From a virus, in the IMG/VR virus record IMGVR_UViG_3300044796_000119, positions 1 to 31,308 of that record: 31,308 nt of DNA; one strand, written 5' to 3'. Below are positions 2,919 through 24,149 of the stretch, in pieces; position 1 is the first letter of the stretch; each line of letters starts with the position of its first letter. The notes under the pieces were generated by a model that made no database searches, had not been told where the DNA came from, and was given only the letters and a program-made list of their open reading frames with translations. The position numbers and the translations under genes are program-made.

Positions 2919-4367
2919 TCACGTTAGCCCAAACTTTCTAGTCTCTTGTGGCAAGTTCCGGCCTGGCTGTTCAAAGCCGAGCGGGCCTCGAGGGGGCGGT
3001 TGGCCCCCGCCATCGCTCCACGCGCTCGCGACCTGGGGCTTGAACTTGCTCACAGCGGGTATAAGTAGCTTACCAGTAGGATACAGTACCGCAGCACCGT
3101 AACCAAATGCGTCTCCAGGGTGCGAATGGATATCTTTCGCGGGCTCGGTCGAAACAACTCCAGTCTTTGCCACATGATAGTGCCATCCTCCGCGAAGTGC
3201 CCACCAAATATCGCGGGCGTGGGTGCGGTCCACCTGCACCAGACCGCGACCGTTGATCAATTGGCGCAAGATGGCACGCGCAGGGTTCTCCCGCTCGGGC
3301 CACCGTACTGGACCAGAACGCCAGAAGCCCCCAAGGATGCGCTGCATCATCTTCACGGCGCTCATGTTGCTGTTTGAGGGGTCGCGGGCGAGCCCGGCAG
3401 GGTCGCCGCAGTGCCGCCAGCGAAATCCTCGGAACTCGTCACGCAACACGGGCAGCACTTGAGCCTCGCAAAGCTGCTGAACGCCAATGCTATCGCCCAC
3501 AAACGAATGCAAGATGTTCCAATTGCCCAACGGCGTGCGCTGAGTGATCAAACAAGTCGGGTTGAGGCCAAAATCCCAACACAACCAGAGGTCTTGTCCG
3601 CGAATTGGGCGTAAGCCGACCGCTAAATGGACATCATCGTTCCACTCGGGCGTGACAATGCGGCCGTTTTGTTGAAATCCAAAGCGGCCTTCAAGAAATC
3701 GCCGCTGTAAGTCAGGTCTTCCTTCCCAAAGACGGCGCAGATTACTATAATAGCCAGTTGGAAGGTTCTTTTCGTTCTCTGGCGCGGTCGGTTGCCACAG
3801 TTTGAAGCCCTCTGTGCCCGGATCAACAAAGCGCCGATAGGTCCAATGGCTCTCGTCCGGGTTATTTTCGGCCAACTTGAGCCCATACCACTTCATTCCG
3901 GGCTGGCGAAGGCGCGAAAGGGCGACGTTGAACACAAATTCGTCGATCCCACCGTTGCCCCCGGCCGGCGCGGGCTCGTCCATGCCAATGAAACCTGCCG
4001 CAAGTGACTGCAACTTACCCGCATCGTTCTGATCATCGAGCCCAAGGAAGCCAACGGTGCCTTTTGCAACGCCTTCGGCCCATGTAAACTCTTTGTTTTG
4101 CTGATTGAACGCCCCCATGACGCCCGGAGGGAACCAAGTGAAGAACTCTTTGACCGTCGTGCGCTTCAAATTCTCCCATGTATCGCGAATAAGGAAGGCC
4201 GCAGCACCCGGATTGTGCCGCGCATGATAGAAAGTGGCCCAGCAAAGGGCCGCAGATTTGCCCTCGCCCATGCGCGACGAGAACAAATCGGCCGTCGCGC
4301 GGCTCTCGATAAAGGCTTTCTGGACCGGATTTGGGAAGAATTTGCTCTCGAAAACGGCCTGGGCCAT
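2919..4367 (-). CDS. terL: Terminase large subunit
   Basis: This is the motor ATPase and nuclease that pumps DNA into the prohead. The 482-aa protein has a Walker A motif GEGKS (residues 34-38) after a phosphate-loop strand, and a Walker B GFIGMDEP with D130-E131. In the C-terminal half it has an RNase H-fold nuclease signature: WDFGLNP with the first metal-binding Asp, and HPGDAFGYG near the end with a later Asp. Length and motif order fit podovirus/siphovirus large terminases. It starts where the upstream 90-aa gene ends (4-base overlap). Confidence 0.93.
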   Translation of the reverse strand: MAQAVFESKFFPNPVQKAFIESRATADLFSSRMGEGKSAALCWATFYHARHNPGAAAFLIRDTWENLKRTTVKEFFTWFPPGVMGAFNQQNKEFTWAEGVAKGTVGFLGLDDQNDAGKLQSLAAGFIGMDEPAPAGGNGGIDEFVFNVALSRLRQPGMKWYGLKLAENNPDESHWTYRRFVDPGTEGFKLWQPTAPENEKNLPTGYYSNLRRLWEGRPDLQRRFLEGRFGFQQNGRIVTPEWNDDVHLAVGLRPIRGQDLWLCWDFGLNPTCLITQRTPLGNWNILHSFVGDSIGVQQLCEAQVLPVLRDEFRGFRWRHCGDPAGLARDPSNSNMSAVKMMQRILGGFWRSGPVRWPERENPARAILRQLINGRGLVQVDRTHARDIWWALRGGWHYHVAKTGVVSTEPAKDIHSHPGDAFGYGAAVLYPTGKLLIPAVSKFKPQVASAWSDGGGQPPPRGPLGFEQPGRNLPQETRKFGLT

Positions 4368-4639
4368 TAGTTTAACCGCGTGATTTTGAGCACCATTCCG
4401 GTCGGTATTCGCGAAATTCCGTTCAATAACCAGTCACCATTCCACCCCAGAGTATTACAAGTGACCAGCCAGTTCTTGGTTTCCTCAAGTATCCAACCCA
4501 CAGTCTCGTTCGGGCACAGTTCAGTCTTTCGGGTTTCCTCGCGCACTTCGTCAATGTTCATCCAACTGGTGTCGCCTTCCGCGTCTCGCCAGGTAACGTG
4601 GACGAGCTTAAACGGGCACTTAGCGGGCTTTAACAGCAT
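4367..4639 (-). CDS. Hypothetical protein between terminase subunits
   Basis: This is a 90-aa acidic protein starting at MLLKPAKCPFKLVHVTW. The start is set by the ATG at 4639, which lies inside the last codons of the small terminase gene with an AAGGAA upstream; longer versions of the frame would overlap that gene deeply. It has several Trp and Cys residues and a TWRDAEGD...WMNIDEV segment, the pattern of a small beta-sandwich protein. Function unknown; it sits between terS and terL and may be expressed with them. Confidence 0.65.
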   Translation of the reverse strand: MLLKPAKCPFKLVHVTWRDAEGDTSWMNIDEVREETRKTELCPNETVGWILEETKNWLVTCNTLGWNGDWLLNGISRIPTGMVLKITRLN

Positions 4640-5300
4640 GGTCCAGTTCCTTTGGTTGGAGGGGATTATCGGGCATCTCTTGTACAACGGTCGCGGTGTA
4701 GGTGAATGGGCCTTCGCGCTCGACACGCGGCCCACCTTGCCCCAGGTCCAGATCGGTGTTGATCTGCACCATGACGTGCGGCACCGCCGGCATACGCTCG
4801 CCGTACTCTTGCGGGTTGAGTTTGCCTGCCATCCACTGTAGCGTGCCAAGACCGGTACGGATTGCGTTCACGGTTGAGGCGTCTTCCTTCCCGTAATCGT
4901 CGGCGGCGTTGATCAGCTTATTGGCCAAGTTCTGCACCTGGTCAAAGATCGCGCCCGCCTTTATCCGTTTGGCCTCGTCCCAGAGCTTTCGCAGTTCTGG
5001 GCGTTGTAGCACCCAAGAATGAAACGTGGTAGCGGTTATGGGAACATCAAGCTCTGCACACGCCTTGCTCAGTGTTGCTCCAGCGGAGACGGCCTCTAAG
5101 ACCCGCGCAGCCCTGACGGGATCGTATAGCGAGGGCGCGTGTCCGCCAGAGGCGAATACGCGGGCTGGAAGCTGTGTGGCAATGGCGGCCTCTGCCGCAG
5201 TCTGCGGAACCAAGTCGCGTGCGTGCTTGAGCTTGATCGGCGCCTTGGTGCGCGGCCGGCGTTTTGGGATGTTTCGGGGTTTCTTGGCGGGGGCGTCCAT
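4620..5300 (-). CDS. terS: Terminase small subunit
   Basis: Small terminases bind the packaging site and recruit the large subunit. This 226-aa protein has a basic N-terminus, then a helix-turn-helix segment (AVSAGATLSKACAELDVP...TFHSWVLQRPEL), then a helical oligomerisation region (LWDEAKRIKAGAIFDQV), the order seen in Sf6-like small terminases. An upstream TTG at 5336 is possible, but the ATG at 5300 is preferred: the residues before it lie inside the promoter dyads, and the -10 box TATATT is only 6 nt before this ATG. It is the first gene of the left minus-strand operon. Confidence 0.82.
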   Translation of the reverse strand: MDAPAKKPRNIPKRRPRTKAPIKLKHARDLVPQTAAEAAIATQLPARVFASGGHAPSLYDPVRAARVLEAVSAGATLSKACAELDVPITATTFHSWVLQRPELRKLWDEAKRIKAGAIFDQVQNLANKLINAADDYGKEDASTVNAIRTGLGTLQWMAGKLNPQEYGERMPAVPHVMVQINTDLDLGQGGPRVEREGPFTYTATVVQEMPDNPLQPKELDHAVKAR

Positions 5301-5318
5301 GCGGAGAATATACTCCGC
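5301..5318. repeat. Inverted repeat on the terS -10 box
   Basis: GCGGAG and CTCCGC form perfect 6-bp arms around a 6-nt AT core that is exactly the putative -10 hexamer. The dyad abuts the terS start codon, so a bound protein would block transcription. As RNA it would instead hide the only GGAG near the start. Confidence 0.6.
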
Positions 5319-5336
5319 ACAGGCCGGGGGAAACAA
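5307..5336 (-). promoter_or_regulatory. Putative leaderless promoter of terS
   Basis: Read on the minus strand: TTGTTT (5336-5331), an 18-nt spacer, then TATATT (5312-5307), CTCCGC and the ATG of terS. Transcription would start at or next to the A of the ATG, giving a leaderless mRNA. The same -10/CTCCSC/ATG arrangement occurs at 10142-10156. Confidence 0.5.
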
Positions 5337-5352
5337 CCGTCACCCCCCGGCC
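5322..5352. repeat. 9-bp GC inverted repeat upstream of terS
   Basis: Perfect arms GGCCGGGGG (5322-5330) and CCCCCGGCC (5344-5352) flank a 13-nt loop. The loop contains the putative -35 hexamer of terS (5331-5336). No T-run follows on either strand, so an operator or cruciform is more likely than a terminator. Confidence 0.55.
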
Positions 5353-5453
5353 ATTGGGTAAGCCATTGTTATCTTTTGAGGTTTAGTTTCCGCCTACAGA
5401 TGGGACCGCCGCGCACGGCAAGAAACTGCGGCGACGGGTGGGGACAACGAAGC

Positions 5454-5900: not shown

Positions 5901-5957
5901 TTGGGCCCGGGCAATACGCGCCCTGGGTGGATGCACTGCAACATAAAGGCTTGAGAC

Positions 5958-7508
5958 ATGCAAGCACACAGAATATACAGGACACAAAAGGCACGTGGAT
6001 GTGCCGCCCTGGCGCGCGCTGATGGTGCCTTGCCTTTTGGTTCAATGTTCACGGTAAACGCTGTCAACAAGTGCCAAGTGTGGCCATATATGATGTATGC
6101 CGAGCGGCCTGCCTTCGGGCGCCCATGTCCATTGGTGCCGCGTCACGGCTTTGTGGACAGCCGCGTGGTACACAATCAACCTGACGTAGATCGGCTGATC
6201 GCGGAAACAATCGCGGTTGAACCTGATGCCGAGATCATGTTTGGTCCCGTTCTTGAAGGCAAATGGTCCGCAGTAGTCAACAATGCAGGGGTTTCCATTG
6301 GCGTTGGCCACGATGGCGCGACCGGCGGCAAGGGGAGCCTATTGATCCCTGCGCCAATTGATCCGAGAGAGCTAGCCAATGTGATTGATCCATCCCAGAT
6401 AAATGATGCGCCGTTCTATGAAGTGGTAGGCCACAAAAACATGGCCGAGCTTGTTCAAATGCGGGACGGGCCGGCGATGCCCGCGACGGCCGATTTCATT
6501 CCTGGACCGGTTCGCGTCGGCCGCGTTATGATCCCGCACGATGACTTGTTGAGATGGGAAACGGAAATCAAGGAAGCTTCAAGCGATACGGTTATTTGGG
6601 CGCACGGTTCAACACTCGCAAGCCATGCGGCGGTTCATGCAATCGCGCGCGGGCTGGCCGTTGTGACCAGTGAACGCAAGCCGGTTGTCGGCGAGATGCT
6701 TGAACCTACCGTAGAGAACAATAAACTGCACAAAGACGCGTTGCATTACATCGCGCGCCAGTTAGTCGCCGCGTGCCGTATTCGCTTTGGTGACGGCTTA
6801 CTTGGCAGTAGTGGGCCAACGGGACGCTCGACACATTGTTTGACAGCCGTGTGTGCGCTTCAAGCTTCGCCCATTTGGGGACCGGCCGAACATTTATGCC
6901 GTATTCGCGCGTGGTCCATCGCCATGCTCGCGCGGTATCTGACGGCCGCAATTGCGGGGGAGGCACGGCACTTTGTTGCGGCCGGGCCAGCGCGGCGTTA
7001 TGGTGGCGAGAACAAGATAGGGCACTTGAAATTTGAAGATCGGCCACGTAGCCAGGCGCACCCAGATTTAGACTTTGTGAACAAAAACGGTGAAATCACG
7101 GGACTTCACGGTCCTCGAGACACATACTATCGCGAAGCCTTTGAACTAAACGCGGTGCAGTCAGAAATCATGGCCAAGGCTTGCATGAAAGATTTTAACG
7201 GGGATTGGCTAAGCGGCATGGGCGGCGCGGCGTGGCAAGACGTGGCGACAAAAACCCATGCCTTATGGACTGCCATTTTTCGCTTCACTGCAAAACCTAC
7301 CGCGATGCGGCTTCAGCTTATGACCATGGCCGCGAATACCGCGATCAACACGGCACACAATAACGGTGCGATATTGACCAAGTGGGCGCATAGCGCATAC
7401 CTTAGCCAAGCTTCTCAATATCCTAGCTTGGGCTTGGCCAATCGACGGATTTTTGAATTGGCGCTTAATCCGCGCTCTATCACAAACGCGGTTACTTTGG
7501 AGGCATAA
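5958..7508 (+). CDS. PEP-utilising mobile-domain-like protein
   Basis: This 516-aa protein is the first gene of the early block. Residues 216-235 (HGSTLASHAAVHAIARGLAV) match the swivelling phosphohistidine domain of PEP synthase/PPDK-type enzymes, whose pattern is G-G-x-x-S-H-A-A-x-x-A-R-x-x-G-I-P-A-V. His223 is at the phospho-carrier position. Upstream, GPVLEGKWSAVVNN and GHDGATGGKGS look like part of a nucleotide-binding (ATP-grasp-like) segment, but a full ATP-grasp domain is not evident. The C-terminal 270 residues are unrecognised. The ATG at 5958 has only a weak AAAGG; an ATG at 6045 is an alternative. It is followed 7 nt later by a tyrosine phosphatase, suggesting a joint phosphotransfer role (inference). 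Confidence 0.6.
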   Translation: MQAHRIYRTQKARGCAALARADGALPFGSMFTVNAVNKCQVWPYMMYAERPAFGRPCPLVPRHGFVDSRVVHNQPDVDRLIAETIAVEPDAEIMFGPVLEGKWSAVVNNAGVSIGVGHDGATGGKGSLLIPAPIDPRELANVIDPSQINDAPFYEVVGHKNMAELVQMRDGPAMPATADFIPGPVRVGRVMIPHDDLLRWETEIKEASSDTVIWAHGSTLASHAAVHAIARGLAVVTSERKPVVGEMLEPTVENNKLHKDALHYIARQLVAACRIRFGDGLLGSSGPTGRSTHCLTAVCALQASPIWGPAEHLCRIRAWSIAMLARYLTAAIAGEARHFVAAGPARRYGGENKIGHLKFEDRPRSQAHPDLDFVNKNGEITGLHGPRDTYYREAFELNAVQSEIMAKACMKDFNGDWLSGMGGAAWQDVATKTHALWTAIFRFTAKPTAMRLQLMTMAANTAINTAHNNGAILTKWAHSAYLSQASQYPSLGLANRRIFELALNPRSITNAVTLEA

Positions 7509-17336: not shown

Positions 17337-18410
17337 ATGCACGCAACCTGTCGGCCTCAGTTCCCGAAGAAACTCCCTTGCAAGCTTGCCTTCATCGGCG
17401 AGGCGCCCGGCGACACGGAAATGCGCGATGGTTGGCCGTTGATTGGCCCGAGCGGGCGCGTGTACGATTATGCGCTTCGGGCGGCCGACATTGATCGGCG
17501 CGAAGTTCTGACCACCAACGTCTTCAACATTCAGGCACCAGACAATGACGTTACCGCATGGACCGTTTCTCTCACAGAGGCACGGGCTAAGGGCTGGCCT
17601 ACTAAGTACGACTTTCATGGTCGGTATTTCGACCCCGGCTTTCTTCGAGAACATCTTGATCGCTTGGCTGATGAACTGGATAAGGCTCGGCCGACCGTGG
17701 TTGTCCCGATGGGGGCTACGCCGCTCTGGGCACTCACCCACTCGGCAAGTATCACGGAGGCAAGAGGCGCAGTTGACCAAGCGACGGCGCTCATTCCAGG
17801 GCAAAAGATACTCCCTACGTTCCACCCGGCCTATATCATTCGGCAGTGGAAGTTCTTCACGACCATAGTCGCGGATATGGTCAAGGCCGCCGCCGAGGCC
17901 GAACGCGGCCCTAAGATCATTCGGCAGAGGATGGAAATATGGACGGAGCCGACCTTGAAAGACTTAGATGCGTTTGCGGCGAAGTACTTGGACAAGTGCG
18001 AAGAACTGTCAGTCGATATCGAGACGGTTCGCCGCCCTTCCAGGCAAATTACGTGCATTGGTTTTGCACCCGATGCGGCCCGGTGCCTAGTGATACCATT
18101 CGTGGACTGGAGAAAGCCATCGAGAAGTTATTGGCCGACGATGGACGCGGAGATGCGTGCGTGGGCGTTCGTGGAGAAGTGGTGCCTGAGCCCCCAGCCA
18201 AAGGTCTTGCAGAACGGGCCATATGACGCATATTGGCTTTGGGAGTTGATGGGCATTCCGCTGCGCAATTACTCTGAGGATACGCGCTTGATGCACCACG
18301 CGCTTTATGCGGAGTTGCCCAAGGACTTAGGCTTCATGGGCGCAACTTACCTGAGCCTGCCGCCGTGGAAGACGTGGCGTGCGGGCAAGGCACACAAGAA
18401 GGACGAATAG
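17337..18410 (+). CDS. UDG-exonuclease half of a split family A DNA polymerase
   Basis: This 357-aa protein has GGAGG four bases before the ATG. Residues 15-200 match family 4 uracil-DNA glycosylase: motif GEAPGDTEMRDGWPLIG at 21-37 and FHPAYIIR with His163. The usual iron-sulfur cysteines are only partly present (Cys5 and Cys15). Residues 220-357 are the first part of a DnaQ-like proofreading domain: ExoI VDIET with Asp227 and Glu229, and ExoII NGPYD with Asn293 and Asp297. The protein stops (KKDE) before ExoIII. The missing ExoIII and the polymerase domain are in the gene at 19344. UDG-exo-pol fusions are known in some phages from memory. Confidence 0.85.
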   Translation: MHATCRPQFPKKLPCKLAFIGEAPGDTEMRDGWPLIGPSGRVYDYALRAADIDRREVLTTNVFNIQAPDNDVTAWTVSLTEARAKGWPTKYDFHGRYFDPGFLREHLDRLADELDKARPTVVVPMGATPLWALTHSASITEARGAVDQATALIPGQKILPTFHPAYIIRQWKFFTTIVADMVKAAAEAERGPKIIRQRMEIWTEPTLKDLDAFAAKYLDKCEELSVDIETVRRPSRQITCIGFAPDAARCLVIPFVDWRKPSRSYWPTMDAEMRAWAFVEKWCLSPQPKVLQNGPYDAYWLWELMGIPLRNYSEDTRLMHHALYAELPKDLGFMGATYLSLPPWKTWRAGKAHKKDE

Positions 18411-18411
18411 G

Positions 18412-18594
18412 ATGAAATTGAACCTTGGCTTTCTACCGCTTCTCACTCTGCTGTTCGTGGCGTTGAAGCTGACCGGGTACATCGCGTGGTCTTGGTGGCT
18501 GGTGTTTTTGCCGTTCTATGCACCGTTAACCCTTATCCTTATTGTTATGGGGCTCGGCGGGTACGCCGTGTTTTCGGCATGGAACCAGGAGTAA
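18412..18594 (+). CDS. Small membrane protein, Fragile-X-F type
   Basis: This 60-aa protein starts one base after the previous stop (TAGGATG). It has two membrane spans, about residues 5-25 and 32-52, and the core LLTLLFVALKLTG...WSWW seen in phage proteins often labelled transmembrane Fragile-X-F proteins (name recalled; function unknown). It is the first of the genes inserted between the two halves of the DNA polymerase. Confidence 0.65.
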   Translation: MKLNLGFLPLLTLLFVALKLTGYIAWSWWLVFLPFYAPLTLILIVMGLGGYAVFSAWNQE

Positions 18595-18761
18595 CCCCCC
18601 GCTACATCGTGCGAGAACAGCTTGGCTCGCCAAACACCTTTGCAAAGTGGGTGGTTTGGGATACGACGCTGGGCCAGAACGCTGACTCGCGACTGTCTCG
18701 GCCAGAGGCCGAGGACATTTGCAAGGCCCTCAACGAGATATGGGAGGGCGACCATGAGTGA
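18579..18761 (+). CDS. Small hypothetical protein
   Basis: This 60-aa protein starts at MEPGVTPRYIVREQLGSPNT, overlapping the previous gene by 16 bases; the binding site is weak. The pattern strand (RYIVREQ), strand (AKWVVWDTTLG), then helix (RPEAEDICKALNEIW) is typical of small phage proteins of the same length. Function unknown. Confidence 0.55.
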   Translation: MEPGVTPRYIVREQLGSPNTFAKWVVWDTTLGQNADSRLSRPEAEDICKALNEIWEGDHE

Positions 18762-19008
18762 TATGCCCCCGATTGACGCGCCGCGTGAAGACCCGCGCGT
18801 GACTTCGATGCTTGATCTTGGTGCCCCTCCAGAACATTTCTTTCCAGCCAACCAGGCTGTGATGATAGGGCTCATGCTCATGCTCAATACGTTCTATGGC
18901 ATGGTGCGACGGTTTCGGTCGTGGAATAGTGAGCGGGCAATCTTCAAGCTGCGAATGACTGCAATGGAGAGCCGCCTTGATGCGCTGGACGTGGACGAGC
19001 CGGTATGA
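18754..19008 (+). CDS. Small protein with one membrane span
   Basis: This 84-aa protein has one likely membrane segment near residues 34-49 (AVMIGLMLMLNTFYGM), preceded by an acidic Pro-rich part and followed by a charged helix (RSWNSERAIFKLRMTAMESR). Overlaps the previous gene by 8 bases and the next by 4. Function unknown. Confidence 0.55.
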   Translation: MSDMPPIDAPREDPRVTSMLDLGAPPEHFFPANQAVMIGLMLMLNTFYGMVRRFRSWNSERAIFKLRMTAMESRLDALDVDEPV

Positions 19009-19277
19009 AAGGCGACGTGTATCATGCGGCGGCGGACATTTTCTTGCGCATCTTCCGGCGCAAGAACACAATCGGACCAGATACGTGGTTTTTCCAACTG
19101 TCACGCGGCTTTGTTAAACAGGAGCGCGGGCCGTTCACGGACTATAACCGCTGCGTGGAAACGGCTTCGCGCATTCTTACAGAGGAATGGAAAGATGACT
19201 TCGGAAACGCCCCTCAACGACACAGTGACCCATCTTCGGGAAACGATCCTACCCAAAGCTCGCCGGCTTGCGCTTAG
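19005..19277 (+). CDS. Small hypothetical protein
   Basis: This 90-aa protein starts by ATGA overlap. The first 65 residues look coding (HAAADIFLRIFRRKNTIG, then WFFQLSRGFVKQERGPFTD). The last 25 residues overlap the next gene in another frame and are polar. Function unknown. Confidence 0.5.
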   Translation: MKGDVYHAAADIFLRIFRRKNTIGPDTWFFQLSRGFVKQERGPFTDYNRCVETASRILTEEWKDDFGNAPQRHSDPSSGNDPTQSSPACA

Positions 19278-19344
19278 GGCGCTTGTGGTCACGGTCGGGC
19301 TTGCGCTCGCGGTGCTTGGCTTCATTGGCTACGTTATCTCCTGA
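19195..19344 (+). CDS. 49-aa single-span membrane protein
   Basis: The ATG at 19195 follows AGAGGAATGGAAAG and overlaps the previous gene by 83 bases. A polar N-terminus (TSETPLNDTVTHLRET) leads into one membrane helix at about residues 27-48 (ALRALVVTVGLALAVLGFIG). Its stop overlaps the polymerase start (TGATG), so it probably couples translation to the polymerase. Confidence 0.6.
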   Translation: MTSETPLNDTVTHLRETILPKARRLALRALVVTVGLALAVLGFIGYVIS

Positions 19345-20945
19345 TGGCGCGCATTTTAACGTTGGACACTGACCCGCGCGAATTGAGCGGGTTCCTGCGG
19401 CATAGTCTCTACAACGGAGTTGATTGCTGCTCAACAAAGGAACTTGCCGACCTGTTGCGTAAGCGCATGTCGCCAATGACGCGTCGGCTCTATAAGTTCG
19501 AGATGGGTTGCCAAGCGCCCGCCTTTCAAATGATGCTACGTGGCGTGCGCGTGGACCTGGCCGCTATTCAGGAAGCTCTTACGTCATTGGAGGCTGATTA
19601 TGCGACAGAGGCTCGCGCGGGTGACACTCTATTGCATGGGGTGTGGGATGGAGTAGCGCTTGAAACAGGACGGTGTTCCGGTTCCGATAAAAGACACAAG
19701 TGGCCGCGTGGAGTGCCCGACACCGACCGAGTGTGCGAACGCTGTGGATCACCACGCGTTGTCCGCGAGCCTTTCAACCCTAACAGCAGCGATCAAGCCT
19801 GGCATCTGTTCTATGAAGTCTTCAAGCTCCCGCCCATGCAGAACAAGAAAGGCGAGGTAAGCACCGATGAAGAAGTCCTCCAAAGGATTGAACGCAAGTG
19901 GGCTGGAAAGCTCCCTGCGTTTTGTGCGACGAGAATTTTGGCGGCACGGGCTATTAGGAAGCAAATCGGTGTCCTTAAATCAGGTGTCTCCGCAAATGGA
20001 CGCATTCATTCAACGTTTGTTGTTGGCGGCGCGTGGACCGGTAGATGGTCCTCGACCGCTTCACCGTTTGACGAAGGTACGAACCTTCAAAACATAGCTG
20101 AGAAGCTGCGCTATATCTTCATCGCGGACCCAGGAATGGAGCTTTTCTATGCAGACCTTGAGCAAGCTGAAAGTTGCTGTGTCGCTCATTTGGCTGGCGA
20201 TGAAAGTTATATCGCCGCACACGCTTCGGGCGACGTGCATACCTATGTCTCACGACTGCTCTGGCCAGAGTTACCGTGGACTGGCGATCTTGCGCGAGAT
20301 AAAGCCATCGCGGGCAACACCCACCCCGAGTGGGACCGGGATCATGATTACCGATACAATGCTAAGCGCATTCAGCACGGAAGCAATTACCTACTCTCGC
20401 CAACAGGTGTCGCGCGCATCGCTCACATTCCAAAAGCCGCTGCTGATGAAGCCCAACAACGATACTTTGATGCCTTCCCTGGAATAAGGCGGTGGCACCA
20501 TGCGACAATCGCGGCCCAAAAAGTTGCCATGGTTCTCACGTCCCCTAGCGGACGAATCTGCCAATTCTTTGGCCGGCCGTGGGACGAGCATACGCAAAAG
20601 CAAGGGGTCGCGTTTGTGCCACAGTCTATGGTCGGAGATATCCTCAACGTGGCACTCTGGCGCGTCTGGAACGAGATGGACCCCGGCGCCCTTGAAATCC
20701 TCGCCCAAGTCCACGACGCTATCCTGGGCCAGTTCCGTGCGAAGGCAACGGTCACGGTCCACGGCCAAAGATATACTGCGGCAGAGCGGCTTCTCGAACT
20801 GATGCGTGTGCGCGTGCCGATTGTTGGCGTAGACGGCAAAGAGCGCGTCATGGTGATTGGGACAGAAATGAAGTGCGGCCAGAACTGGTCCAAGTTCAAC
20901 GACGACCCGAAGAAAGGCCGCATAAACCTGGGCGGTTTGCGATGA
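19344..20945 (+). CDS. Family A DNA polymerase, ExoIII plus polymerase half
   Basis: This 533-aa protein has at its N-terminus SLYNGVDCCS, the ExoIII YxxxD motif (Tyr23, Asp27), so it continues the proofreading domain begun in the gene at 17337. A Cys/His cluster near residues 110-136 (GRCSGSDKRHKW, then VCERCG) looks like an inserted zinc ribbon. Polymerase motif A is DLEQAES (Asp271, Gln274, Glu276). Motif B is RYNAKRIQHGSNY (Arg337, Lys341). Motif C is QVHDA (Asp458). His345 stands where Phe or Tyr is usual and Ala459 where Glu is usual. There is no own ribosome binding site; the start overlaps the previous stop. Confidence 0.9.
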   Translation: MARILTLDTDPRELSGFLRHSLYNGVDCCSTKELADLLRKRMSPMTRRLYKFEMGCQAPAFQMMLRGVRVDLAAIQEALTSLEADYATEARAGDTLLHGVWDGVALETGRCSGSDKRHKWPRGVPDTDRVCERCGSPRVVREPFNPNSSDQAWHLFYEVFKLPPMQNKKGEVSTDEEVLQRIERKWAGKLPAFCATRILAARAIRKQIGVLKSGVSANGRIHSTFVVGGAWTGRWSSTASPFDEGTNLQNIAEKLRYIFIADPGMELFYADLEQAESCCVAHLAGDESYIAAHASGDVHTYVSRLLWPELPWTGDLARDKAIAGNTHPEWDRDHDYRYNAKRIQHGSNYLLSPTGVARIAHIPKAAADEAQQRYFDAFPGIRRWHHATIAAQKVAMVLTSPSGRICQFFGRPWDEHTQKQGVAFVPQSMVGDILNVALWRVWNEMDPGALEILAQVHDAILGQFRAKATVTVHGQRYTAAERLLELMRVRVPIVGVDGKERVMVIGTEMKCGQNWSKFNDDPKKGRINLGGLR

Positions 20946-22387: not shown

Positions 22388-22632
22388 CGTGGGCCGAGTT
22401 CAAGCGTTTACAACGGCTCGCTGCTGCCGACACGAACCCTTGGCAAGCACGCGGGAGCAACATATATGATGATCAAGACGTTCTGATCGCGGAGTTCAAA
22501 AAGCCCGACGCGGCGGCCCTCGTTGTCGAGCTTCACAACGGTTTCATTCCTGTGTGCAATCTGGTAATCTGGGCCGTCGCAAAGTGGAAGGACGCAAAGA
22601 ATGTCAAGCAAGTTCGCGCTGACGAAGACTGA
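22384..22632 (+). CDS. Hypothetical protein with TTG start
   Basis: This 82-aa protein starts at a TTG overlapping the previous stop (TTGA), with GGGGTGAG just before it. No ATG or GTG is available early in the frame. N-terminal helix (WAEFKRLQRLAAAD), then strands and a helix around AAALVVELHNGFIP. Its end overlaps the next start by 32 bases. Function unknown. Confidence 0.55.
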   Translation: MTWAEFKRLQRLAAADTNPWQARGSNIYDDQDVLIAEFKKPDAAALVVELHNGFIPVCNLVIWAVAKWKDAKNVKQVRADED

Positions 22633-23380
22633 AAAAGACGCGGTGCGCACGGCAAACGCGCATGATCCCAAGGTGCTGTTTTGGGATATTGAAGCCACCG
22701 GTTTGAACGCTACGTTTGGGACCATTCTCTGCATTGGCTTCATGTGGGAGACGGACAAAAAGCCCACGGTTTATACGATCCTGGACGCAGGCTCAGGTTT
22801 GCGGTCGATGTTGAATGACAAGCACGTTGTGCAGCGGTTTGCGGAGGTTTACAATACGGCCGACGTGTCCGTGACCTGGTACGGCGACCGGTACGATTTG
22901 CCAATGGTACGGACTAAGTGCCTCAAGCACGGGTTGCCGCCGTTGGCACCAGTCAGGAACTTGGACTTGTGGAAGTCGGTACGTTACCGGTTCAAGCTCC
23001 ACAACAACCGGCTTGCATCGTGGCAGCAGTTCTTGAAAACCGAACACGAAAAGACCAACATAGACTTTGACGCGTGGCTTGCTGCGGCGCATGGCGGGAA
23101 GAAAGCCATGAAGGAAGTGGTGGACCACTGTGCAAAGGACGTGTTAGCGCTGCGCGACCAGTACCATAAGCTCAAGCCGTGGCTGTCTGAGCAACCTGAT
23201 CAGTGGACATTCACGGGCAAAGAAGCGTGTCCGTCTTGCGGCTCGTTCAACTATACGCGGCAGGGCACAAAAACGACCGTCACCCGCATTTATCAGCAAT
23301 ACCAGTGCAAGGCATGTGGGCATTGGTTTCGAGGCGCACACACGCTTGGCAGTGCGCCTTTCCGTTCATCGCCAAGCTAA
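22601..23380 (+). CDS. 3'-5' exonuclease of the RNase H fold with zinc ribbon
   Basis: This 259-aa protein has an N-terminal DEDD-type exonuclease core: FWDIEATGL (Asp29, Glu31), then TWYGDRYDLPMV, then HCAKDVLALRDQYHKL as the final D-motif helix. A C-terminal zinc ribbon (CPSCGSF, then CKACGHWF, residues about 210-245) is added and probably binds DNA or RNA. It is separate from the proofreading domain of the polymerase, so the phage encodes two such exonuclease domains. It may degrade host nucleic acid or process replication ends. Confidence 0.8.
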   Translation: MSSKFALTKTEKDAVRTANAHDPKVLFWDIEATGLNATFGTILCIGFMWETDKKPTVYTILDAGSGLRSMLNDKHVVQRFAEVYNTADVSVTWYGDRYDLPMVRTKCLKHGLPPLAPVRNLDLWKSVRYRFKLHNNRLASWQQFLKTEHEKTNIDFDAWLAAAHGGKKAMKEVVDHCAKDVLALRDQYHKLKPWLSEQPDQWTFTGKEACPSCGSFNYTRQGTKTTVTRIYQQYQCKACGHWFRGAHTLGSAPFRSSPS

Positions 23381-23398: not shown

Positions 23399-23719
23399 AT
23401 GACCGAAATCCCTGTGGTTGCCGCGCCAGAGAAAATGATCCCTGGCGTACGCGTATCGGTCCAGTTGTATGTGATTGGCGAACAAACGCTTGAGCCCAAC
23501 ATCTTCAACGTCACATACGTTATCAAGGAAGATGGCAAAGGGCTCACCGTTGAGGCGATCAACAAGTGCGCGTCGATCATGAAGGAAATCGCGGCCACGA
23601 AGATGAACCAACCGGTTGTTCTTATGACGGACGCGCAGATCGCCGATTATGATCGCATCCTTGAAGCGCAGCAAGAGGCGCTTGAGCGAAGGGCGGAGAA
23701 AGGATATAGTGATGCTTAA
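23399..23719 (+). CDS. Hypothetical protein
   Basis: This 106-aa protein follows ACGGAGGAC at 23380-23388. Strand-rich N-terminal half (VRVSVQLYVIGEQTLEPN, FNVTYVIKEDG), then helices (VEAINKCASIMKEIAATK) and a charged helical tail (DYDRILEAQQEALERR). Function unknown. It overlaps the next gene slightly. Confidence 0.6.
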   Translation: MTEIPVVAAPEKMIPGVRVSVQLYVIGEQTLEPNIFNVTYVIKEDGKGLTVEAINKCASIMKEIAATKMNQPVVLMTDAQIADYDRILEAQQEALERRAEKGYSDA

Positions 23720-24149
23720 GGCGGGCTGTAAGATGCCATACTGGTATATGTGTTCGGGGTATACCAGTTTCCCAAACGGTAAAGAGGCCGCGTTCGGTGC
23801 AGCCTGTGAAGCGACAGCCGCGAAGTATGACAAAGACCCTATGTGGCTAGGGGTGATCGCACGGTTCCCGCGCGCCCTGCGTGCTGTTTCCAAAGTGTCC
23901 GCGTTTGGTTCTCAAAAGCATCAAGCCTCAATGTCGGATATGAGCTACCGTCATGTGCCCGATGCCGATACGGTGTATTTGGAAGCAGTGGGGCGACATC
24001 TTACGGACCGCGCGATTAAGGGACGATATAACCAAGAGGACGGAGGACTTAGGCATCTTGCGCAGCTTGCTTGGAACTCGCTCGCGGCCTTGGAAGTGGA
24101 GCTTGAACAGGACGAGCAGGTTTCTAAGAAACCAGAAAGACTGGCTTGA
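23712..24149 (+). CDS. dATP/dGTP diphosphohydrolase-like (DUF5664 type)
   Basis: This 145-aa protein starts at ATG 23712 (GTG at 23709 possible) after GGAGAAAGGAT. The layout RFPRALRAVSKVSAFGSQKH followed by a helix YLEAVGRHLTDRAIKG and then GGLRHLAQLAWNSLAALEVE resembles the phage family in which P-x-x-A-L-x-x-V-x-x-V-x-x-F-G-x-x-K-Y is followed by a H-L-x-x-x-x-W-N helix (dATP/dGTP diphosphohydrolase N-terminal, DUF5664). Such enzymes trim dNTP pools. The match is distant and from memory. It is the last gene before the terminator. Confidence 0.5.
   Translation: MLKAGCKMPYWYMCSGYTSFPNGKEAAFGAACEATAAKYDKDPMWLGVIARFPRALRAVSKVSAFGSQKHQASMSDMSYRHVPDADTVYLEAVGRHLTDRAIKGRYNQEDGGLRHLAQLAWNSLAALEVELEQDEQVSKKPERLA

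Follow-up and report, generated by a model that had tools for sequence, protein, structure and literature searches.

The window, a 31,308-nt stretch of viral DNA (IMG/VR record IMGVR_UViG_3300044796_000119), carries a family-A DNA polymerase that is divided between two open reading frames (Table 1). Half 1 encodes a UDG-like domain and the exonuclease domain through ExoII, and half 2 opens 22 residues ahead of ExoIII before continuing into the polymerase domain. The initial annotation had assigned ExoI and ExoII to the first ORF and ExoIII with polymerase motifs A, B and C to the second. The sequence confirms this assignment, as it does the intervening 933-bp gap with five small ORFs, the last of which is coupled to half 2 by a TGATG overlap (19342-19346). 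In addition to the Pfam UDG match of half 1, half 2 matches Pfam DNA_pol_A (1e-34), and the two halves match phrog_17 with values of 1e-21 and 6e-50, covering profile positions 552-778 and 808-1232 consecutively and with no shared stretch. The UDG-like, exonuclease and Pol A domains are ordered as in this UDG-exo-pol family and the catalytic residues are present, but in place of the single polypeptide of phrog_17 there are two ORFs in 74/74 loci and in at least 55 further contigs.

Table 1. Features of the divided polymerase locus (positions in the window).
Feature	Position	Strand	Description
Half 1	17337..18410	+	ATG 17337, stop 18408-18410, 357 aa; UDG-like domain + 3′-5′ exonuclease through ExoII
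UDG-like domain, half 1 aa 15-176	17379..17864	+	Pfam UDG 5e-15; Foldseek UdgX/family-4 UDG E ~1e-12
ExoI D227-I228-E229 (half 1)	18015..18023	+	D, E each 70/70 in split family
ExoII N293...D297 (half 1)	18213..18227	+	N 70/70; D 69/70 (one E) in split family
Insert, variable accessory-gene slot (from sequence)	18411..19343	+	933 bp; no Rfam match; unrelated genes in related loci
Small ORF 1	18412..18594	+	60 aa, membrane protein; hydropathy 2.31; phrog_1374, unknown function, 2e-17
Small ORF 2	18579..18761	+	60 aa, soluble; no family (searched as longer frame from 18486)
Small ORF 3	18754..19008	+	84 aa, possible single TM; hydropathy 1.29; no family
Small ORF 4	19005..19277	+	90 aa, soluble; no family
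Small ORF 5	19195..19344	+	49 aa, single TM; hydropathy 2.55; TGATG overlap with half 2
Half 2	19344..20945	+	ATG 19344, 533 aa; ExoIII segment + family-A polymerase domain
ExoIII Y23-N-G-V-D27 (half 2)	19410..19424	+	Y 83/83, D 83/83 in split family
Polymerase motif A Asp271 (half 2)	20154..20156	+	D 83/83
Polymerase motif B Lys341 (half 2)	20364..20366	+	K 83/83
Polymerase motif C Asp458 (half 2)	20715..20717	+	D 83/83

Within the split family, UDG motif A of half 1 is mostly GEAWG and not GEAPG. The family-4 UDG Fe-S cluster may be absent from this domain, because a CxxC near the half-1 N terminus is rare (2 loci). His occupies the position equivalent to Klenow Phe762 (window 20376-20378) in 83/83 split relatives and in 59/61 unsplit ones. 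Downstream of the polymerase, the window encodes a second DnaQ/RNase-H-like exonuclease (22601-23380; RNase_H_2 1.5e-14, weak DNA_pol_B_exo2), and positions 23649-24149 encode a protein with a dATP/dGTP diphosphohydrolase N-terminal domain (4e-15).

Alignment with the unsplit proteins of Mel-JY34, vir526, Tiera and MW202489 places the break in the linker between a WK dipeptide and the ExoIII Tyr. This linker is mostly 16-23 residues long in the unsplit proteins, whereas the split proteins have 11-16 residues after WK in half 1 and a further 20-26 before the Tyr in half 2. Judged from these lengths, nothing is lost at the break; new ends have been added, and the halves together are longer than the unsplit linker. 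The earlier reading of a continuous UDG-exo-pol chain, broken in one linker with little lost, is borne out by this alignment, in which the parts are collinear with the unsplit homologue and each keeps its own share of the active site, as is characteristic of genes in pieces. The new tail of half 1 is conserved, with the consensus TIKR[DE][DE], and tails of this type end none of the 40 last insert genes inspected across 39 loci. The tail might be a protein docking signal, or its purine-rich sequence could be a ribosome-binding site for the next gene.

The best phage match of both halves (tblastn) is the cultured Caulobacter phage Kuura, whose gp29 (annotated as hypothetical) and gp26 (as DNA polymerase) correspond to half 1 and half 2 and share the break; two small genes unlike the insert genes of the window separate them. 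The Kuura paper does not mention the split (PMC9959647). When IMG/VR was scanned with half 2, 80 loci were returned; 74 loci, the window and Kuura included, have both halves, which are separate ORFs in every one. At least 64 split loci were found in a second scan, 9 of them on contigs already known, leaving at least 55 that are new. The break seen in the window is therefore found in at least ~129 distinct contigs in all, Kuura included, some of them re-samplings of one virus; at 75% identity, the first set contains 55 distinct split sequences. No fused form was found in the split clade among the 74 loci and the at least 55 further contigs, and the search patterns sit in the polymerase domain and therefore do not favor split forms. 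A viral scan with half 1 returned one locus only, and a search of genome contigs gave one remote match, which is unsplit. The presence of the same break in many independent contigs and in a cultured phage rejects a sequencing error that splits one gene. In a tree of the polymerase part, the split sequences lie on one side of a branch with SH-aLRT 93 (55 split versus 33 unsplit) and the unsplit relatives form their sister group, a topology that fits one origin of the split. The window and locus L007 are sisters in this tree (support 99), while the placement of Tiera (L005), on a long branch, is unsure. The protein encoded at 5958-7505 of the window was searched for in L007 and was not found.

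The catalytic residues of both halves are invariant or nearly so in the split family (Table 1), including polymerase R337 (83/83). Where close pairs have diverged sufficiently for measurement, most dN/dS values of either half fall within 0.04-0.17, near-identical pairs being uninformative. On these data both exonuclease parts are under constraint, and purifying selection alone is silent on whether exonuclease activity is used. The halves could instead be separate enzymes that do not rebuild the active site, namely a free UDG carrying the remnant of an exonuclease (half 1) and a polymerase deficient in exonuclease (half 2). Each half does have a complete other domain (UDG or polymerase) able to explain selection, and the UDG part is its own gene in L021. 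However, the ExoI, ExoII and ExoIII residues are almost invariant across very diverged sequences, the distances of the two halves are correlated (r = 0.90), and L021 keeps a 136-aa ExoI-ExoII piece as its own gene without the UDG. We therefore regard separate enzymes as improbable.

The half-1 profile matches family-4 UDG/UdgX and the Klenow exonuclease in the PDB, and a joint profile of both halves aligns collinearly with Klenow all the way from ExoI to the C terminus (E 1e-66). AF2 modelled half 1 of the window alone with a pLDDT of 87, with residues 319-327 and the tail below 50; these low-confidence residues adjoin the site of the missing ExoIII helix. In locus L033, a single TAA lies between in-frame halves, and AF2 modelled the read-through chain with a pLDDT of 94.1 and a pTM of 0.90, with a confident ExoIII helix (353-378). 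Residues 297-305 of L033, which correspond to residues 319-327 of the window's half 1 (alignment offset 22), belong to blocks with averages of 90-97 in the joined model, which is a tethered single chain modelled with 67 sequences versus 28 for half 1 alone, some of them unsplit. The half-1 tail is poorly modelled in the joined structure, with short strands at 332-333 and 339-342. The top PDB neighbours of the L033 joined model are E. coli Pol I/Klenow and phage G20c PolI. A naturally abutting pair, when read through, is predicted to rebuild a Klenow-like fold.

The length of the junction varies widely while the break does not. In the first set, 16/74 loci have a gap of -4 to +2 bp and the others one of 163-1700 bp, and in the second at least 24 loci have one of -4 to +2 bp, a few of which are on first-set contigs; across both sets the values are -4, -1, 0, +1, +2 and 29-1700 bp. 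This variation bears on whether one continuous product is made through a group I/II intron, a split intein, or programmed frameshifting, hopping or read-through. Introns are known in phage polymerase genes and one was proposed for the MEP401/402 polymerase (PMC10580990), and in L033-L035 and L078 the halves share a frame with a single stop between them. However, neither the window nor its insert contains an Rfam intron match, at least ~40 loci (re-sampled viruses among them) have a gap of only -4 to +2 bp and others one of up to 1.7 kb, and almost every locus provides half 2 with a start codon of its own, 20-26 residues ahead of ExoIII. The new ends, at 11-16 residues after WK and 20-26 before the ExoIII Tyr, are too short for the halves of a split intein. 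A self-splicing intron was rejected, given no group I/II ribozyme in the window and halves that abut or overlap, and so was programmed frameshifting or read-through, given no defined frame relation between the halves across these gaps. One continuous product is thus scarcely credible. The initial annotation had offered assembly in trans or joining of the transcript; the first is the reading we favor, and the gaps and lack of an Rfam intron disfavor the second.

The content of the junction is equally labile. At least 8 changes between abutting and filled states are needed on the tree, and L171, in which the halves overlap by 4 bp, shares ~95% DNA identity on both flanks with the filled L174. 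The L174 insert consists of a single gene, encoding 78 residues, whose end repeats the KRDE-ATGA sequence found at the end of half 1, as if this junction had been copied. L018, L022 and L027 have near-identical halves with gaps of 524, 769 and 922 bp, and the near relatives L076 and L078 differ in their inserts. Insert genes elsewhere belong to unrelated families, including DUF7768, nucleoside deoxyribosyltransferase-like, dNMP kinase, TSCPD, HTH, DUF1937 and others, and no relatives of the window insert ORFs were found in other inserts. At least three membrane proteins had been proposed for the window insert; two have clear transmembrane segments (small ORFs 1 and 5), and small ORF 3 is borderline. 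Because the gene families are unrelated, and presence and length vary between near-identical viruses, the insert, on these comparisons, is a site where ordinary accessory genes come and go, whereas the split itself does not change.

The lability of the insert also informs the origin of the split, which could stem from the arrival of this cargo block or, as in T4-like phages, from a homing endonuclease. Early-branching lineages (the window, L007, Kuura, L087, L043 and L008) all have inserts, and Aeh1 nrdA and gene 43 of phages 25 and 44RR are precedents (PMC2988022). However, no Pfam endonuclease was found in the window or among the insert genes of the subset of inserts scanned, inserts differ between near relatives (L018/L022/L027, L076/L078 and L171/L174), and the window's insert ORFs lack relatives in other inserts, making such an origin very improbable. 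The initial proposal of a gene split by cargo insertion was right in that the break lies inside the exonuclease domain; this insert as the cause is not upheld, since the split is constant and the insert is labile, ranging from 0 to 1.7 kb. An ancient insertion may still have been the first cause of the split, because the deepest branches all carry inserts.

Taken together, we consider it highly likely that the two ORFs encode a replicase of two obligate subunits that together complete the exonuclease site in trans, the docking and the exonuclease activity of the complex being what we infer. Half 1 would fold as a UDG-like domain and most of a DnaQ-type exonuclease, contributing ExoI and ExoII, and half 2 would be the polymerase, with an N-terminal segment supplying the ExoIII Tyr and Asp. 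Docking of half 1 on half 2 would allow the ExoIII helix of the polymerase subunit to complete the exonuclease site, presumably with no covalent joining of the halves, and proofreading would occur only as a two-protein complex. One ancient split in the ExoII-ExoIII linker would have been kept since, and small accessory genes would later have come and gone at the junction, the window's five small ORFs being one such set. It is interesting to speculate whether the split is kept by selection because proofreading and UDG then form a detachable, separately dosed subunit, which we consider unlikely. In such a scheme, half 2 on its own would act as an exonuclease-minus enzyme, fast or error-prone, and proofreading would be turned on once half 1 docked. 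In favor of this idea, at least ~129 contigs contain no fused revertant, though one stop parts the in-frame halves in L033-L035 and L078.

The UDG-exo-pol enzyme is also broken at other positions. L021 has a three-gene form, with the UDG at 3902-4681, the ExoI-ExoII piece at 5020-5430 and ExoIII-pol at 5995-7506, and the UDG domain of L063 (3825-4952) is interrupted by ~440-520 bp. In the sister group, L158, L159, L160, L163 and L136 are broken at approximately residue 550/563, just before motif A, with variable gaps, although the L136 break may be a frameshift, and L143 and L164 are broken between the UDG and exonuclease domains. L138-L141 and L144 (~5902-6761 of each locus) carry an in-frame insertion of at least ~860 bp at polymerase motif B in one ORF, intein-like in appearance. 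Because other breaks occur in L021 and the unsplit sister group, breaking of this enzyme is recurrent; of the breaks seen here, the one in the exonuclease is alone in being fixed throughout a clade.

A lineage that has long lived with a divided proofreading site offers a natural setting in which to study whether proofreading can act as a switchable subunit, and may be useful for making a two-part polymerase. In addition, annotation misses half of such enzymes, as with Kuura gp29, and the junction of a replication gene acts as a landing site for accessory genes.

Split replication enzymes are already known, and comparison with them defines what is particular to this one. The unsplit UDG-exo-pol family-A enzymes of phages (phrog_17; Microcystis phage Mel-JY34, vir526 and the phiLo polymerase 9qhs) share its domain order, catalytic motifs and collinear alignment, but are one chain with ExoII and ExoIII unbroken. 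In E. coli Pol III, the proofreading exonuclease is a separate subunit, epsilon, beside alpha. The exonuclease here is likewise on a separate subunit, but epsilon has a complete active site, whereas the active site itself is divided here. Gene 43 of Aeromonas phages 25 and 44RR (43A/43B) is split and nrdA of Aeh1 is in pieces, and phage 25 43A and 43B co-purify and are polymerase-active (PMC2988022). As in the present case, a replication enzyme is made as two polypeptides with DNA between their genes, although co-action is inferred here. These systems differ in that gene 43 encodes a family-B rather than a family-A polymerase, a homing endonuclease or untranslated spacer takes the place of ordinary accessory genes, and the splits were described for single phages and not across a clade. 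In most genomes of the MEP401/402-type OM43 phages, a family-A polymerase is likewise encoded by two ORFs that flank a small one, but the break is inside the polymerase domain (PF00476), the exonuclease domain is within one ORF, and the authors considered an intron (PMC10580990). Our literature searches, which reached few subscription journals, did not turn up any enzyme described as broken between ExoII and ExoIII. It is this position of the break, and its fixation across a clade, that set this enzyme apart from the cases above.
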